Source of the DNA: Agrococcus sp. ProA11
GTDB lineage: Bacteria > Actinomycetota > Actinomycetes > Actinomycetales > Microbacteriaceae
Length of the DNA stretch: 64,000 nt
Assembly (NCBI RefSeq): GCF_039880525.1
Contig: NZ_CP156989.1
Span: forward strand, 310,001 to 374,000
Reading direction: 5' to 3'
A program made the translations under genes and the position numbers. Every line of letters begins with the position of its first letter. Positions within the stretch are counted from its first letter, which is position 1. Of the stretch, positions 1,712 through 8,742 are shown in pieces. The notes below the pieces were generated by a model. It was not told where the DNA came from. It did not search any database and saw only the letters and a list, made by a program, of their open reading frames with translations.

Positions 1712-2896
1712 TCATCGCAGCCGCTCGATGATCTCCATCGCGCTGCCGGTGCCATCCTCTCGCTCCATCGCGGCGGCCGCGCGCCGCACGTGCTCACGGA
1801 GCCCCAGCGCCTCGTCGATCGCCCGCCCGGCGGCGCGCTCGCTGAGACCGCGGCGGCGCAGCGGCGCGGCTGCGAGTCTGCTGCGGTGCAGGATCCGCGC
1901 CCAGAACGGCTGGTCGGCGAGGAACGGCACCACGATGGAGGGCGCGCCGGCGCGCACCGCCGCATGCACGGTGCCGGCGCCCCCGTGGTGCACCGCCACA
2001 GCAGCCCGCGGCAGCACGAGCGCATGCGGCGCCTGATCGACGACCAGCACGTCGTCGCCGAGCGCGTCCGGCGGCACGTCGACGCCGCCCCATCCGCGCA
2101 TCACGAGCGACTGCAGCCCGCGGCTCCTGGCGGCACCCACGAGGGCGCGGCCGCGAGTGAGCGCATCGCCTCCGGCCATCGAGCCGAATCCGATCACCGC
2201 GCTCGCTCCGCGGTTGAGGAAGGCATCGACCGTCGGATCGAGCGGCTTCGGATCCGCCTCGCTCATCCACGCGCCCGTCAGGTGCACGTCGGCTGGCCAG
2301 TCGGCTGGGCGGGCGAGGATGCTCGGGCTCACCGGCACGAGGGTGGCTGCGGTCGGTGCCACCTCGTCGGAGCCCAGCACCGCGGCCGCGGCACGGAGCT
2401 CGCCGCGGAACATGGCGGCGGCGCCGGCAGCGGCCGCATAGGTGAGCCGGTTGAACGGCCCGAGGCTGCCGGGGGCCGTGCCGGCGGCGGGGAACGCTCT
2501 CGTCGGCGTGACGGTGGGCACGAGCTCGGCCAGCACGGAGGCGGCGCCGACGCGGGAGGCGAGCATGGGCGCAGACAGGATCTTGGGGTGATGCACCACC
2601 ACATCGGGTGCGACCTCGAGGCCGATACGAGCGGACTCGACGAGCACCGCGTGCATGAGCGGTCGCACGACGGTGCGGAAGCTCCTGGCCGCAGCGACGA
2701 CCGACGTGCCCTGCTCGGCGATGAGCCTGCTGTAGTCGACGCCGAGGCTGCGCACGTCGATGCCGTCGAGATCGGCGCCGGAGCCGTCGGGGGCGGCGAG
2801 CACCACCTCGTGACCGCGCGCGAGTGCTCGGCGAGCGAGCGCGACGAAGGGTTCGACGTCCCCGCGCGTGCCCGCGGTGACCAGCAGCAGCCTCAT
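1712..2896 (-). CDS. GT1-family (UDP-glycosyltransferase-like) glycosyltransferase
   Basis: 394 residues. The N-terminus MRLLLVTAGTRGDVEPFVAL is the nucleotide-sugar-transferase Rossmann opening of the MGT/UGT group, and the C-terminal half has VHHGGAGTVHAA followed by PFLADQPFWA, the usual sugar-nucleotide-binding signature of GT-B, family 1 enzymes. Such enzymes glycosylate lipids, sterols or natural products. I chose ATG 2896 because the conserved opening starts exactly there; the frame stays open upstream but encodes nothing recognisable. It is divergent from the 3093-6117 operon, which also carries sugar-modifying enzymes, so a shared product is possible but not shown. Substrate unknown. 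Confidence 0.85.
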   Translation of the reverse strand: MRLLLVTAGTRGDVEPFVALARRALARGHEVVLAAPDGSGADLDGIDVRSLGVDYSRLIAEQGTSVVAAARSFRTVVRPLMHAVLVESARIGLEVAPDVVVHHPKILSAPMLASRVGAASVLAELVPTVTPTRAFPAAGTAPGSLGPFNRLTYAAAAGAAAMFRGELRAAAAVLGSDEVAPTAATLVPVSPSILARPADWPADVHLTGAWMSEADPKPLDPTVDAFLNRGASAVIGFGSMAGGDALTRGRALVGAARSRGLQSLVMRGWGGVDVPPDALGDDVLVVDQAPHALVLPRAAVAVHHGGAGTVHAAVRAGAPSIVVPFLADQPFWARILHRSRLAAAPLRRRGLSERAAGRAIDEALGLREHVRRAAAAMEREDGTGSAMEIIERLR

Positions 2897-3092: not shown

Positions 3093-4103
3093 ATGACCGC
3101 TGCGGTGCAGTCCGCCGTGACGCTGGAGCGCGGCGCCGGCGGCGAGACGCTGCGCTCGGCGCTCGGCGCGCTGCCGACGACCGTTGCCGAGGCGCTCGCC
3201 GCCGCGCCCGCGCTCGCCGCGGCGGTGCCGCTGCCCGGCGCCGGACGCACGGTCGAGCGGCTCGAGGCGCTCGCGACGCTCGGCGCGCACGACCTCGAGG
3301 TCGCGCGGGCGATCGAGCCGCACCTGGACGCGGTCGCGATCCTCGCCGAGGCGGGACTCGAACCCGGCGCCGGCGCCTATGGCGTCTTCGCGGCCGAGGG
3401 CCCGGGCGCGAGGCTCGAGCTGCGCGACGGCAGCCTTGCGGGGGAGAAGCCCTGGTGCTCGCTCGCCGATCGCCTCGATCGGGCGCTCGTCTCCGCCTGG
3501 CAGGGCGAGGAGCGCGTGCTCGTCGATGTCGACCTGCGGCAGCCGGGCGTGCAGGCCGTGCCGGGCGCCTGGCATGCCCGGGGTCTGGCGGGCATCCCTT
3601 CCGGTCCCGTGCGGTTCGATGCCGTGCCGGCAGAGCCGGTGGGGGAGCCGGGCTGGTACCTGCGACGCCCCGGATTCGCGTGGGGCGGCATCGGCGTCGC
3701 CGCCTGCTGGCATGGCGGCGCGGTGGCGGTCGCGCGCAGGCTGCTGGGCGCCGCGGGCGACGCGCCGCTGCGGCTCGCGCACCTGGGCGCCATCGACGAG
3801 GCCCTCAGCGCGTCGCGGCTGGCGCTCGCCGACGCCGGCCGTCGCATCGACGCCGGGGACGACTCCGTCGCGCCCGGCCTGCTCGCGCTGCGCACCCGAG
3901 GGATCGTCGCACGCGCGGTGGAGGAGACCCTCACTCGCGTCGCCCACGCGCTCGGTCCTGCCCCGCTCGCGCTCGAGGCCCAGCATGCCCGCCGGGTCGC
4001 CGACCTGCAGCTCTACGCGCGGCAGCATCACGCCGAGCGCGACCAGGCCTCGCTCGGCACCGAGATCCAGACTCGGGCAGCAGACGGGTCGACGCCATGG
4101 TGA
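3093..4103 (+). CDS. Acyl-CoA-dehydrogenase-like flavoprotein
   Basis: 336 residues, Ala-rich and shorter than a typical 380-residue acyl-CoA dehydrogenase. The pattern DLEVARAIEPHLDAVAIL near the N-terminus and a GGIGVAACWHGGA stretch (about residues 205-217) resemble the divergent acyl-CoA-dehydrogenase-like proteins that sit next to PIG-L/methyltransferase genes in actinobacteria and pseudomonads; I place it by this context and by recollection of that family, not by alignment. A normal catalytic Glu could not be assigned by eye. Its last codons overlap the next start (ATGGTGA at 4097-4103), so it is the first gene of a translationally coupled trio. It may oxidise or desaturate a lipid or amino-sugar intermediate. 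Confidence 0.6.
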   Translation: MTAAVQSAVTLERGAGGETLRSALGALPTTVAEALAAAPALAAAVPLPGAGRTVERLEALATLGAHDLEVARAIEPHLDAVAILAEAGLEPGAGAYGVFAAEGPGARLELRDGSLAGEKPWCSLADRLDRALVSAWQGEERVLVDVDLRQPGVQAVPGAWHARGLAGIPSGPVRFDAVPAEPVGEPGWYLRRPGFAWGGIGVAACWHGGAVAVARRLLGAAGDAPLRLAHLGAIDEALSASRLALADAGRRIDAGDDSVAPGLLALRTRGIVARAVEETLTRVAHALGPAPLALEAQHARRVADLQLYARQHHAERDQASLGTEIQTRAADGSTPW

Positions 4104-5401
4104 TGCCCACCCAGCCGCGCTTCCGGGGCGACGACGCCGGCACGCCGATCGCTGCGTGGCTGCAGAGCGCCGCGCTCCGCGACGCGCCCGTGCTGCGCGC
4201 GGCCCCCGGCGAGCTGCTGGTGGTGGCGGCCCATCCTGATGACGAGGTGCTGGGCGCCTTCGGGTCGATGCTCGACGCTGCACGCCGCGGCATCCCCGTC
4301 ACCGTCGTCGTCGCGACCGACGGCGAAGGCTCGCACCCTGGCTCGCCGACGCTCTCGCCGCAGGCGCTCGCCGCGCAGCGCCGCCGCGAGCAGGAGGCGG
4401 CGCTCGGCGACATCGGCGCGCGCATCGTCCGCCTGGGGCTCCCGGATGGCGCCGTGCGCGCGCATCGCAGCGAGCTGGTGCGCGCCATCGTGCCGCTCAT
4501 CGCCGGCCTGCCCGACGACGCGCTGGTGCTGGCACCGTGGGCGCACGACGGCCATCCGGATCACGAGGCGGTGGGGGATGCCGTGGCCGCCGTCGCGCGC
4601 GAGGCCGGTCGCGACTGCGCGTGGGCTCCGATCTGGGCATGGCTGTGGGGCGAGCCGGGCCTGTTCGATGACGCGGCGCTGCGCCGCGTGCCGCTGGATG
4701 CCGAGGCTCGCGACGCCAAGGCGCGCGCGATAGCGGCCCATCGGTCGCAGGTCGCGCCGCTGTCGCCCCACGACGACGACCGCGTGGTGCTGACGCCCGA
4801 CATGCTCGCGCGGTTCGCGGGCGACGAGTGGCTGCTGCTCGCCCCGCCCGCCGCCCGCACCGCGTTCGACGAGCGCTACGCGCAGGAGTCTGATCCGTGG
4901 GCGACCCGGTCCGCCTGGTACGAGCGTCGCAAGCGTGCGCTCGTGCTCGCATCGCTGCCGCAGGAGCGCTATCGAATGGCAGTCGAGGTGGGCTGCGGCA
5001 CCGCGACGCTCACGGCCGAGCTCGCCGGGCGCTGCGAGTCGGCGCTGGGGCTCGATGCCTCGCTGCCGGCGCTCGTCGAGGCGCGGCGCACGCTCGAAGG
5101 GATCCCCAATGCCTGGGTCGAGCACCGCGCTGCGCGCGACGGCCTCCCGGTAGCCGACGTCGATCTGGTGGTGCTCAGCGAGCTCGGCTCCTACCTCGAC
5201 GCGAATGCTCTGCGCGCGCTGCTGCGCGAGGCTCGGGACGCCGGTGCGCACGTCGTGCTCTGCCACTGGCGAGGCGACAGCGACGACATGCTCGCATCGG
5301 CCGACGAGGTGCACGCGCTCGCGGCCGGCATCGACGGCCTGCGTCGCATCGTCGAGCACCGCGATGAGGCCTTCCTGCTCGATGTGCTGGTGCCCGCATG
5401 A
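4097..5401 (+). CDS. PIG-L deacetylase / NodS-like SAM methyltransferase fusion
   Basis: 434 residues in two domains. Residues about 30-260 are a LmbE/PIG-L zinc deacetylase: AHPDDE at 45-50 and HPDH at 153-156 supply the metal ligands. Residues about 270-434 are a class I methyltransferase with the NodS-type opening (DPWATRSAWYERRK) and a VEVGCGT SAM loop at 296-302. PIG-L enzymes remove N-acetyl groups from GlcNAc conjugates; NodS N-methylates the freed amine of chitin oligomers. A fused deacetylase-methyltransferase therefore suggests stepwise deacetylation and N-methylation of one amino sugar; this is inference. It overlaps the gene before by 7 bp and the gene after by 4 bp (ATGA). A second in-frame ATG at 4103 is an alternative start. 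Confidence 0.88.
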   Translation: MVMPTQPRFRGDDAGTPIAAWLQSAALRDAPVLRAAPGELLVVAAHPDDEVLGAFGSMLDAARRGIPVTVVVATDGEGSHPGSPTLSPQALAAQRRREQEAALGDIGARIVRLGLPDGAVRAHRSELVRAIVPLIAGLPDDALVLAPWAHDGHPDHEAVGDAVAAVAREAGRDCAWAPIWAWLWGEPGLFDDAALRRVPLDAEARDAKARAIAAHRSQVAPLSPHDDDRVVLTPDMLARFAGDEWLLLAPPAARTAFDERYAQESDPWATRSAWYERRKRALVLASLPQERYRMAVEVGCGTATLTAELAGRCESALGLDASLPALVEARRTLEGIPNAWVEHRAARDGLPVADVDLVVLSELGSYLDANALRALLREARDAGAHVVLCHWRGDSDDMLASADEVHALAAGIDGLRRIVEHRDEAFLLDVLVPA

Positions 5402-6117
5402 GCGCGACTGCGATCACGCGTGTGCTGGTCGTCGTGCCGGCGCGCGACGAGGCGGCCACGCTCGGCGCCTGCCTCGAGAGCATCGCCGCCGCGCGAGCAC
5501 TCGCCGAGCGCATGCCAGACGTGGAGACCAGGCTCGTGGTGGTCGCCGACGCGTGCGTGGACGACTCCGCGGCGATCGCGCGAGCGGCGGGCGCCGCGGT
5601 GGTCGAGATCGACGCCGCCTCGGTCGGCGCCGCGCGGCGGGCGGGGATCGAGCACGGCCTCGCCGAGTGGAAAGAGGCGGGCGAGCTCGATCGCGCCTGG
5701 GTGGCGATGACGGATGCCGACAGCACCGTGCCGCGCTCGTGGCTGCTCGATCAGCTGCAGGCCGCCTACCGCGGCGCCGATCTGCACGTCGGGCGCGTGG
5801 AGCCCGATGCCGCCGTGCTGCCGCCGGCCGCGCTCGCCGCCTGGCACGCCGCGCACGACCCGCTGCCGGCGGGGGCCGCCGTGCATGGCGCCAATCTCGG
5901 GGTCCGGGCGACCGTGCTCGAGCGCATCGGCGGCGTCGCGCCGATGCGGCTGCACGAGGATGTCGACCTGGTGGCGCGGCTGCACGCGGCGGGCGCCGTC
6001 GTCGACGACCGGCGCCGCCCGCCGGTGCGCACGTCCGGCCGCACGCGCAGCCGCGTCGAGGGCGGCTTCGCGAGCTACCTCTCGGCGCTGCAAGAGCACT
6101 CGCCGCAGCTCGAGTAG
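5398..6117 (+). CDS. Family 2 glycosyltransferase
   Basis: 239 residues, GT-A fold. VLVVVPARDEAATLGACL at the N-terminus binds the nucleotide sugar, TDADSTVPRSWL holds the DxD-like metal motif, and HGANLGVRATVLERIGGV plus LHEDVDLVARL form the acceptor-side ED motif. No membrane segment is visible, so it is probably cytosolic. The ATG overlaps the stop of the deacetylase-methyltransferase (ATGA), and a strong bidirectional hairpin follows, so the operon ends here. With the two upstream genes it likely builds one modified sugar or glycolipid; the donor and acceptor are unknown. Confidence 0.87.
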   Translation: MSATAITRVLVVVPARDEAATLGACLESIAAARALAERMPDVETRLVVVADACVDDSAAIARAAGAAVVEIDAASVGAARRAGIEHGLAEWKEAGELDRAWVAMTDADSTVPRSWLLDQLQAAYRGADLHVGRVEPDAAVLPPAALAAWHAAHDPLPAGAAVHGANLGVRATVLERIGGVAPMRLHEDVDLVARLHAAGAVVDDRRRPPVRTSGRTRSRVEGGFASYLSALQEHSPQLE

Positions 6118-7760: not shown

Positions 7761-8195
7761 ATGAGCATGCTGCAGGTCGATGATCAATTCGAAGTCGCGG
7801 CGCCTCGCAGCGAGGTGTTCCGCGCATGGACGGAGTTCGAGCGGTTTCCGGAGTTCATGACGGGCGTCGACTCGGTGTACGCCGAGACGAAGGAGCGGAT
7901 GCGCTGGCGCGTGTCGATCGCGGGCGTGGAGCGCACCTTCTACGCCGTCGTCACGGAGTGCCGGCCCGACGAGCGCATCGCGTGGATGAGCGTCGATCAG
8001 ACCACCATGGGGTGGTGGATCGATCTGGACGCCGTCGATGACGACCGCACCCGCGTGACGCTGCGCGTCACCTGGTCGCCCAGGGGCGACGGGCCGAGCG
8101 GCCCCGACCTGCACGACCTCGACGAGCGCACCATCCGTTGCGATCTGCAGCGATTCAGGGCGTGCGCGGAGCAACCGCTCAGCCGCGCGGCGTAG
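7761..8195 (+). CDS. SRPBCC-family protein (START-like), first of three
   Basis: 144 residues of one SRPBCC/polyketide-cyclase-like helix-grip domain: VDDQFEVAAPRSEVFRAWTEFERFPEFM is the family opening, and WRVSIAGVERTFYAVV and RIAWMSV mark the following strands. These domains bind hydrophobic ligands; the ligand is unknown. AGGGG at 7756-7760 fits initiation at the second ATG (7767, MLQVDD) better than at 7761, so two residues at the N-terminus are uncertain. It is related to its neighbour at 8260 and to the N-terminal domain at 8853. It is divergent from argG. Confidence 0.85.
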   Translation: MSMLQVDDQFEVAAPRSEVFRAWTEFERFPEFMTGVDSVYAETKERMRWRVSIAGVERTFYAVVTECRPDERIAWMSVDQTTMGWWIDLDAVDDDRTRVTLRVTWSPRGDGPSGPDLHDLDERTIRCDLQRFRACAEQPLSRAA

Positions 8196-8259
8196 CGTCT
8201 CGCAGACCCAGCGCCGTCTGGCGCAACACGATCCGAGTACGACGACAACGAGGAGCATC

Positions 8260-8742
8260 ATGCCCCAGATGACCGACAGCATCGACGTCAAGGCACCGAT
8301 CAGCGCCGTGTACGCGCTCTGGACCCAGTTCGAGGACTTCCCGAAGTTCATGGGCGGCGTCGAATCCATCACGCAGCAGTCCGACGACCGCCTCCACTGG
8401 GAGGTCTCGATCGCGGGCGTCGACCGCGAGTTCGACGCAGAGATCACCGAGCAGCACCAGGACGAGCGCGTCGCATGGCGCAGCATCGACGGTGAGACGC
8501 ATGCCGGTGTCGTGACCTTCCACCGCATCGACGACGCGACCACGCGCGTCAACGTGCAGATCGACTGGAAGCCGCAGGGCGTCGTCGAGGCGGTCGGCGC
8601 GCTGCTGCAGGTCGACGACCTGCAGATCGGCAAGGACCTCAAGCGCTTCAAGGAGCTCGCCGAGGCAGAGCCGTCGACGAGCGCGGCCGAGTCGGGCTGG
8701 GATGGCGACATCGAGCGTTCCACCGACAGCACCGGGAACTGA
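8260..8742 (+). CDS. SRPBCC-family protein, second of three
   Basis: 160 residues with the same helix-grip domain as the gene at 7761 (IDVKAPISAVYALWTQFEDFPKFMGGVESI; LHWEVSIAGVDREFDAEIT; ERVAWRSIDGE), ending in an Asp/Glu/Ser-rich tail. A clear Shine-Dalgarno GAGGAG sits eight bases before the ATG. The two proteins look like paralogues from a tandem duplication. In other actinobacteria such proteins appear with envelope or stress genes, but nothing here fixes the role. A very large hairpin (8789-8849) follows. Confidence 0.85.
   Translation: MPQMTDSIDVKAPISAVYALWTQFEDFPKFMGGVESITQQSDDRLHWEVSIAGVDREFDAEITEQHQDERVAWRSIDGETHAGVVTFHRIDDATTRVNVQIDWKPQGVVEAVGALLQVDDLQIGKDLKRFKELAEAEPSTSAAESGWDGDIERSTDSTGN

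Follow-up and report, generated by a model that had tools for sequence, protein, structure and literature searches.

The 64,000-nt window analyzed here, a stretch of the 2.67-Mb single-contig genome of Agrococcus sp. ProA11, contains three overlapping genes on the forward strand. The first gene (3093..4103) encodes a flavoprotein of 336 amino acids with the acyl-CoA dehydrogenase fold, the second (4097..5401) a fusion of a PIG-L deacetylase with a NodS-like methyltransferase of 434 amino acids, and the third (5398..6117) a soluble GT2-type glycosyltransferase of 239 amino acids. The open reading frames (ORFs) were assigned using Pfam, complemented by profile searches, by structure models for the first two proteins and by a check of all three for membrane segments. 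The initial annotation had described a trio coupled by overlaps of 4-7 bp, with PIG-L and methyltransferase domains in one chain and a GT2 enzyme behind it, and this description was confirmed. The flavoprotein and fusion genes overlap by 7 bp (4097..4103, forward strand), with the TGA stop at 4101-4103 and the ATG start at 4097-4099, the fusion and GT2 genes share a 4-bp ATGA (5398..5401, forward strand) that places the stop of the former over the start of the latter, and Pfam finds the PIG-L, methyltransferase and GT2 domains. Translation of the flavoprotein may in fact begin with the GTG at 3117 instead of the ATG at 3093, because the homology to its nearest relatives begins only at residues 7-9. 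A clear membrane segment was found in none of the three proteins. A short block upstream of the trio, shared by the window and five relatives, represents a candidate promoter; no sigma factor could be named from this block.

Conservation and distribution of the cassette

A profile built from ten flavoprotein homologues retrieved at least 417 relatives from the genome collection, of which the best 80 were kept as loci. The flavoprotein, PIG-L, methyltransferase and GT2 domains occur in this order and on one strand at 74 of these 80 loci, all of them from other genomes. Three of the remaining six end at a contig edge (L042, L047, L084), L087 lacks the GT2 gene, and L082 consists of the flavoprotein alone. 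Of the 74 loci, 64 have a 4-bp overlap between the first and second gene and 67 have one between methyltransferase and GT2, counted with the in-frame start closest to an overlap, a choice that favours overlaps. The translational coupling of the trio is conserved and not due to chance. The fused deacetylase/methyltransferase, which had been pointed out as a peculiarity, is real but not specific to the Agrococcus genome, since 66 of the 77 loci having both domains encode them in a single ORF and the fusion is hence the usual form among the nearest relatives. Separate ORFs were found at 11 loci, 8 of them from Proteobacteria; the contigs of two fused cases with proteobacterial labels, a Nitrococcus metagenome-assembled genome (L086) and a Stenotrophomonas (L090), may be mis-assigned. 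At the Nocardioides locus L043 (8900-9496), PIG-L and GT2 are absent while the methyltransferase frame is still open.

No fixed accessory gene such as a transporter, reductase or exporter appeared among the 25 commonest families per scan of 244 neighbour proteins, a listing that rarer partners could escape. The 244 belong to 292 proteins called around 40 of the loci, with each genus or group represented by one locus. The commonest neighbour family, MFS_1, accounted for 10 of the 244 proteins (5 + 5), ferritin-like proteins for 4. In three Pseudomonas cassettes a second PIG-L gene lies 3' of the GT2 gene (L103:11046-11735, L107:11047-11736, L109:11045-11737). The L103 copy carries HPGDE in place of HPDDE and is followed by an endonuclease/phosphatase-family gene; judged from its motif, it may be a pseudo-enzyme.

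The distribution of the cassette is patchy. The fusion is present in 9 of 24 genomes of the genus, including that of the window (E < 1e-70), and the flavoprotein in 69 of 199 genomes of the family. At the phylum level, 48 of 396 genomes match the flavoprotein, 25 strongly (E < 1e-50) and 23 more weakly, the latter being counted on the flavoprotein alone. Plasmid records gave 77 matches to the fusion and 30 to the flavoprotein. Full or nearly full sets are present in Kitasatospora, Pandoraea, Acinetobacter, Bradyrhizobium, Deinococcus, Komagataeibacter, Legionella, Sphingobium, Sulfitobacter, Comamonas and Nostoc, and versions of the cassette occur also in Pseudomonas and Xanthomonas. A second branch, comprising alpha-proteobacteria and Deinococcus, has a more distant flavoprotein, and its glycosyltransferase in several cases faces the other cassette genes; the sampled flavoproteins of both branches form one clade in an unrooted tree (support 100/98). 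Some sets are partial and do not fit a fixed unit. In Cupriavidus the PIG-L gene stands apart on the opposite strand and adjoins a catalase gene, a Comamonadaceae plasmid carries only the GT2 gene, a Paraburkholderia has methyltransferase and glycosyltransferase with the other two not nearby, and a Roseomonas set lacks the glycosyltransferase. On a Methylobacterium plasmid (L144:5899-7065), a second-branch flavoprotein occurs alone, with no PIG-L or methyltransferase gene nearby and with cyclic-di-GMP-type signalling genes adjoining. Among viral contigs, 36 pattern matches to the cassette were obtained and none was confirmed. A role in anti-phage defence was considered and rejected, because PADLOC returned a single weak match to the methyltransferase domain only.

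Properties of the encoded proteins

The PIG-L domain of the fusion (residues 41-166; 4217..4594, forward strand) is recognized by Pfam with 92.7 bits (cut-off 28.2, E 3e-26). It contains motifs of the zinc-site type, HPDDE at 4232-4246 and DGHPDH at 4547-4564 on the forward strand, and all 53 aligned sequences share the residues H46, D48, D49, D151, H153, D155 and H156. The NodS-like S-adenosylmethionine methyltransferase domain (residues 262-381; 4880..5239, forward strand) was delimited by Pfam and the PDB profile. A Pfam methyltransferase domain covers residues 296-381 (E 4e-9), the Pfam NodS family is reached marginally (24.6 bits, cut-off 24), and the NCBIfam NodS equivalog cut-off was missed (32 bits vs 300). 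The initial assignment as NodS-like is upheld at the level of a distant homologue. The profile aligns with residues 22-214 of NodS 3ofj (E 1.2e-27), including DDPW and E..R, and W268, E276, R278 and E362 are invariant in all 53 sequences. The fusion model (predicted local distance difference test, pLDDT, 92.4; predicted template modelling score 0.74) has 4isc, chitobiose deacetylases and, at rank 4, NodS 3ofk among its best Foldseek matches. The profile matches 4isc even at E 1.5e-64. This solved "putative methyltransferase" of Pseudomonas syringae, a 164-residue chain without a deacetylase domain, is very likely the cassette enzyme of that species, because the methyltransferases of three Pseudomonas cassettes share 66-68% identity with it. 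Given these domain assignments, the fusion is most naturally read as deacetylating an amino sugar and then N-methylating it.

The third protein matches Pfam Glycos_transf_2 with 39.3 bits (cut-off 23.3, E 8e-10). Its DxD motif (5713-5721, forward strand; D106 and D108) and an ED pair (E187 and D188) are invariant in 40 of 40 sequences, and three of its five PDB profile matches are undecaprenyl-phosphate sugar transferases.

The initial annotation compared this gene set with Nod-factor synthesis. A GT2 enzyme, a deacetylation and an N-methylation of the NodS family are indeed common to the cassette and to the NodC-NodB-NodS tailoring, but only the part of the comparison concerning the methyltransferase stands. 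NodB is a polysaccharide deacetylase with a fold other than PIG-L/LmbE and NodC a long membrane GT2, whereas the cassette has a PIG-L deacetylase and a GT2 of 239 amino acids without membrane segment, and the flavoprotein is added. Similarities exist also to mycothiol and bacillithiol synthesis, in which an N-acetylglucosamine (GlcNAc) glycoside is made by MshA or BshA and then deacetylated by a PIG-L enzyme, MshB or BshB. The latter two are among the PDB profile matches of the fusion, which nevertheless scores far below the cut-offs of the MshB/BshB models. Moreover, MshA and BshA are GT4-type enzymes, while the cassette has a GT2 and an N-methylation where those pathways have cysteine ligation. 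DnpA is described as a PIG-L protein of a lipopolysaccharide cluster (PMC6048251).

In the flavoprotein of the window, Pfam detects only the middle domain of acyl-CoA dehydrogenases (Acyl-CoA_dh_M), below the cut-off (E 8e-4). Its AlphaFold model (mean pLDDT 93.9) displays the complete three-domain acyl-CoA dehydrogenase fold, with Z scores of about 28-30 to many structures over more than 300 residues. The initial label acyl-CoA-dehydrogenase-like is therefore appropriate for the fold, but it does not extend to the catalytic Glu. Gln-311 (codon 4023..4025, forward strand) either coincides with the place of this Glu or precedes it by one residue, the sequence alignment being uncertain by one residue in its register. 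In one register, calculated with the Deinococcus row left out, Gln-311 occupies the catalytic-Glu place of dehydrogenases; in the ungapped register, with the SfnB rows L124 and L129 left out, the Glu place corresponds to position 312 and Gln-311 aligns with the His of LHDP in SfnB/DszC-like proteins. Gln-311 is invariant in 65 of 65 aligned members, and position 312 is His in 47 (including the window protein), Ser in 6, Asp in 4 and Glu in 2. Hence, no Glu is conserved at the place of the dehydrogenase base, because position 311 is always Gln and position 312 is Glu in only 2 of 65 members. The catalytic Glu was conserved among the 65 members neither at the YEGT-type place, where four of the five acyl-CoA dehydrogenases of the window genome carry it, nor at what we take to be the isovaleryl-CoA dehydrogenase-type place in the alignment.

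Other conserved positions are shared with monooxygenases. Trp-160 is invariant in all 65 members and occurs also in the aligned SfnB and DszC-like rows, while it is absent from the genome's five dehydrogenases and from one second-branch row. At position 170, 59 of the 65 members have Ser and the other 6 have Thr, and His-77 is common to SfnB/DszC-like rows as well as to two of the five dehydrogenases. A KPWCS motif is kept where dehydrogenases carry a stretch presumably contacting the flavin. The PDB profile matches include the monooxygenases TdsC (4.9e-10), DszC (1e-8) and methanesulfinate monooxygenase (5e-7), the nitrososynthases DnmZ (1.3e-4) and 3mxl (3.1e-3), and dehydrogenases such as 2dvl (3.5e-8). 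The top match, 5gj7, is labelled acyl-CoA dehydrogenase; 5z8t has the same score and name in the profile list but appears in the fold list under the title flavin-containing monooxygenase. Of the NCBIfam models, SfnB and DszC come closest; SfnB is matched by 23 of 65 members with a best E of 1.1e-11, and DszC by 6 of 65 with a best E of 5.4e-5. The cut-offs of these models (430.9 and 850 bits) were not reached, and the window protein matches neither. With the SfnB/DszC/MsuC flavin monooxygenases, a group that is also represented among the best PDB profile matches, the flavoprotein has Trp-160, His-77 and mostly Ser-170 in common, whereas it is shorter and has Gln-311 instead of the His of LHDP (ungapped register) and Arg-72 at the place of DszC His-92. 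The nitrososynthases DnmZ, ORF36 and KijD3 are flavoproteins of the same fold that act on amino sugars, as dTDP sugars in antibiotic pathways. They are weak profile matches and Foldseek neighbours with about 20% identity to the cassette protein. Collectively, the flavoprotein is probably not an acyl-CoA dehydrogenase; we conclude that it is a flavoenzyme without the usual conserved base, which may catalyze a monooxygenase-like reaction. In Deinococcus radiophilus (L024:5746-7995) the flavoprotein is about 370 residues longer at the N-terminus, and this extension gives only a sub-threshold match to Glyco_hydro_53.

Genes near the cassette and the argG site

The cassette is often found near genes for protection against oxidative stress, as shown by the enrichment of Dps-like genes. 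We use "Dps-like" as our own name; the ferritin family PF00210 is present in 10 of 10 cassette genomes searched, with 1-3 copies each. A Dps-like gene was found at 13 of the 80 loci. The enrichment was then analyzed at 40 fresh cassette loci in comparison to 60 control stretches, taken at the same three set positions in each of 20 genomes. The earlier loci had served to define the context queries beforehand, while the grouping of genes was written together with the test; 15 of the 40 fresh loci came from the 20 control genomes, and the fresh loci may share species with the first 80. The cassette itself was well represented at the fresh loci, with the fusion at 39 and the GT2 gene at 37 of 40 when the low-complexity filter was used and at 39 each without it, L218 lacking both. 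A Dps-like gene occurred at 12 of 40 fresh loci and at none of the 60 controls, catalase or Dps at 13 of 40 compared to 1 of 60 (Fisher p 1.7e-5), and any gene of the context set at 17 of 40 compared to 11 of 60 (p 0.008). The fresh loci enter these counts without correction for phylogeny, a point against the stress reading.

Individual loci extend this picture. In two Comamonas, otsA and otsB flank the cassette and a ferritin-like gene follows; 7 of 10 junctions in this otsA-cassette-otsB arrangement are overlaps of 4-17 bp, and few-base gaps occur at the others. The Pseudomonas cassette L103 is surrounded by genes of the trehalose/glycogen type, namely glycoside-hydrolase genes that we interpret as resembling malQ, treY and glgX and, further out, a gene of the glgB type. 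Furthermore, a catalase gene lies near the cassette in Xanthomonas, Sphingobium, Sulfitobacter, Cupriavidus and Acinetobacter.

A GT1-type glycosyltransferase gene (1712..2896, reverse strand) diverges from the trio in the window. The initial annotation had drawn attention to this neighbour, and the gene is real and divergent, but a homologue was found at 0 of the 80 cassette loci and it is not part of the cassette. Its membership was rejected also because 5 of 24 genus genomes have the GT1 gene and only that of the window has the trio as well. With 82.6 bits against a cut-off of 800, the encoded enzyme resembles a rifamycin-inactivating glycosyltransferase. The window has GT1 as well as the trio between argG and the gene to the left of GT1 (the left gene). 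The trio is directly beside argG in four of five close relatives that carry it and 2.7 kb away in the fifth (L032), and GT1 is present in none of these five. In nine genus genomes without the trio, the argG region was also read. In L258 about 75 bp separate the left gene from argG, the spacing is 0.55 to 2.6 kb in L255 and L259-L262, and in L254 GT1 alone stands between the two, at a distance of about 30 bp from argG; in L256 and L257 the left gene was not found within the stretch read. Judging from these layouts of the argG region, the trio and GT1 appear to be carried independently of each other at one variable site. Beyond argG, the window contains two genes (7761-8742) that we named SRPBCC-like; such a gene occurs at 3 of the 80 cassette loci and adjoins a Dps-like gene in L112.

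A proposed pathway and its alternatives

We consider it about an even chance that the trio specifies the four enzymes of a self-contained, cytosolic route to a soluble N-methylated amino-sugar glycoside that serves as protectant. In such a pathway, the GT2 would use a small acceptor, for which trehalose or its phosphate is one candidate, and attach to it an N-acetylamino sugar that is most likely GlcNAc. The PIG-L domain would then remove the acetyl group from the transferred sugar, and the NodS-like domain of the same chain would methylate the freed amine. Finally, the flavoprotein would oxidize the product by a flavin chemistry other than the usual acyl-CoA alpha,beta-dehydrogenation, possibly by oxygenation of the N-methylamine. 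The resulting soluble glycoside might accumulate in stationary phase, on drying or under oxidative stress and thereby protect the cell. Donor, acceptor, product, order of steps, oxidation chemistry and role are all inferred. A more specific version appears distinctly unlikely to us, namely that the flavoprotein N-oxygenates an intracellular glucosamine derivative, perhaps of trehalose, to an N-methyl-N-hydroxy compound (hydroxylamine or nitrone) that traps radicals alongside Dps, catalase and trehalose, and that the pathway is spread across phyla by horizontal transfer.

Several observations weigh against the protectant pathway or its oxidation step. Trehalose/glycogen genes were not significantly enriched (4 of 40 fresh loci vs 1 of 60 controls, p 0.08), and neither genes for short-chain dehydrogenases/reductases (SDR; 8 of 40 vs 8 of 60) nor Hsp20 genes (1 of 40 vs 2 of 60) were enriched. 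The 64 kb of the window hold one gene of the context set, an SDR gene at about 30.4-31.2 kb, 24 kb from the trio, and eight relatives within the genus show no context gene except SDR in three. The PIG-L fold serves other reactions too, as illustrated by the 4-oxalmesaconate hydratase 5cgz in the profile list. Regarding the flavoprotein, one of the genome's own five dehydrogenases (L116) likewise has no Glu at the YEGT place, and the PDB profile and fold matches mix dehydrogenases and monooxygenases at about equal scores and do not separate them. The flavoproteins form their own clade (100/98) inside neither group, in an unrooted tree that included the two SfnB rows L124 and L129 in a wrong frame. 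The DszC residues His-92 and Tyr-96, which we take to be catalytic, align with Arg-72 and Pro-76, and because of these replacements the DszC chemistry is not simply transferable.

The initial annotation had guessed an N-methylated amino-sugar glycolipid, and together with a decoration of surface polysaccharide this reading would agree with the matches of GT2 to undecaprenyl-phosphate sugar transferases. Sets of glycosyltransferase, deacetylase and methyltransferase are used to decorate Nod factors and polysaccharides, and extra glycosyltransferases flank the Sphingobium cassette. However, the GT2 has no membrane segment, and no lipid, flippase or export family was prominent among the 25 commonest families per scan, where polysaccharide-export-type proteins reached 2 and MFS_1 10 of 244. 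The glycolipid guess is not supported, since the conserved set contains no membrane or lipid gene and the one neighbour shown to be enriched is Dps-like, with catalase and trehalose genes occurring case by case; glycolipid or polysaccharide decoration taken together seems unlikely. A small secondary-metabolite cassette, for example for an aminoglycoside-like antibiotic or a signal, would agree with the patchy distribution including plasmids and with the presence of antibiotic-pathway PIG-L enzymes, amino-sugar N-methyltransferases and DnmZ/KijD3 among the structural and profile neighbours; it is nevertheless quite improbable, because no resistance or scaffold gene was prominent among the neighbour families shown and the gene enriched nearby is Dps-like. 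Finally, a true dehydrogenase that desaturates a sugar-attached acyl chain in the formation of an N-acyl amino-sugar lipid is very doubtful, because despite the complete fold, the retained KPWCS motif, the two members with Glu at position 312 and the neighbourhood of ColB1 (which dehydrogenates carrier-bound cysteine) in profile and structure lists, the 65 members have no conserved Glu at the YEGT place or the isovaleryl-CoA dehydrogenase place, and an acyl-CoA ligase-type domain (AMP-binding) was seen in only one neighbour protein among the families shown.

In the literature no description of the cassette was recognized, in a search that left subscription journals mostly outside, and the bacterial pathway is apparently undescribed. 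The annotated records consulted name the genes singly, as acyl-CoA dehydrogenase, PIG-L deacetylase, nodulation S family protein and glycosyltransferase, with no product assigned. The same small unit, however, occurs in at least four phyla, among plant, soil, clinical and radiation-resistant genera. The question can be addressed directly, because one member very likely has a solved structure (4isc), and the cassette offers a test case for an enzyme with the acyl-CoA dehydrogenase fold that lacks the usual base. If the protectant pathway is true, its product would represent a new class of stress metabolites beside trehalose and the low-molecular-weight thiols.

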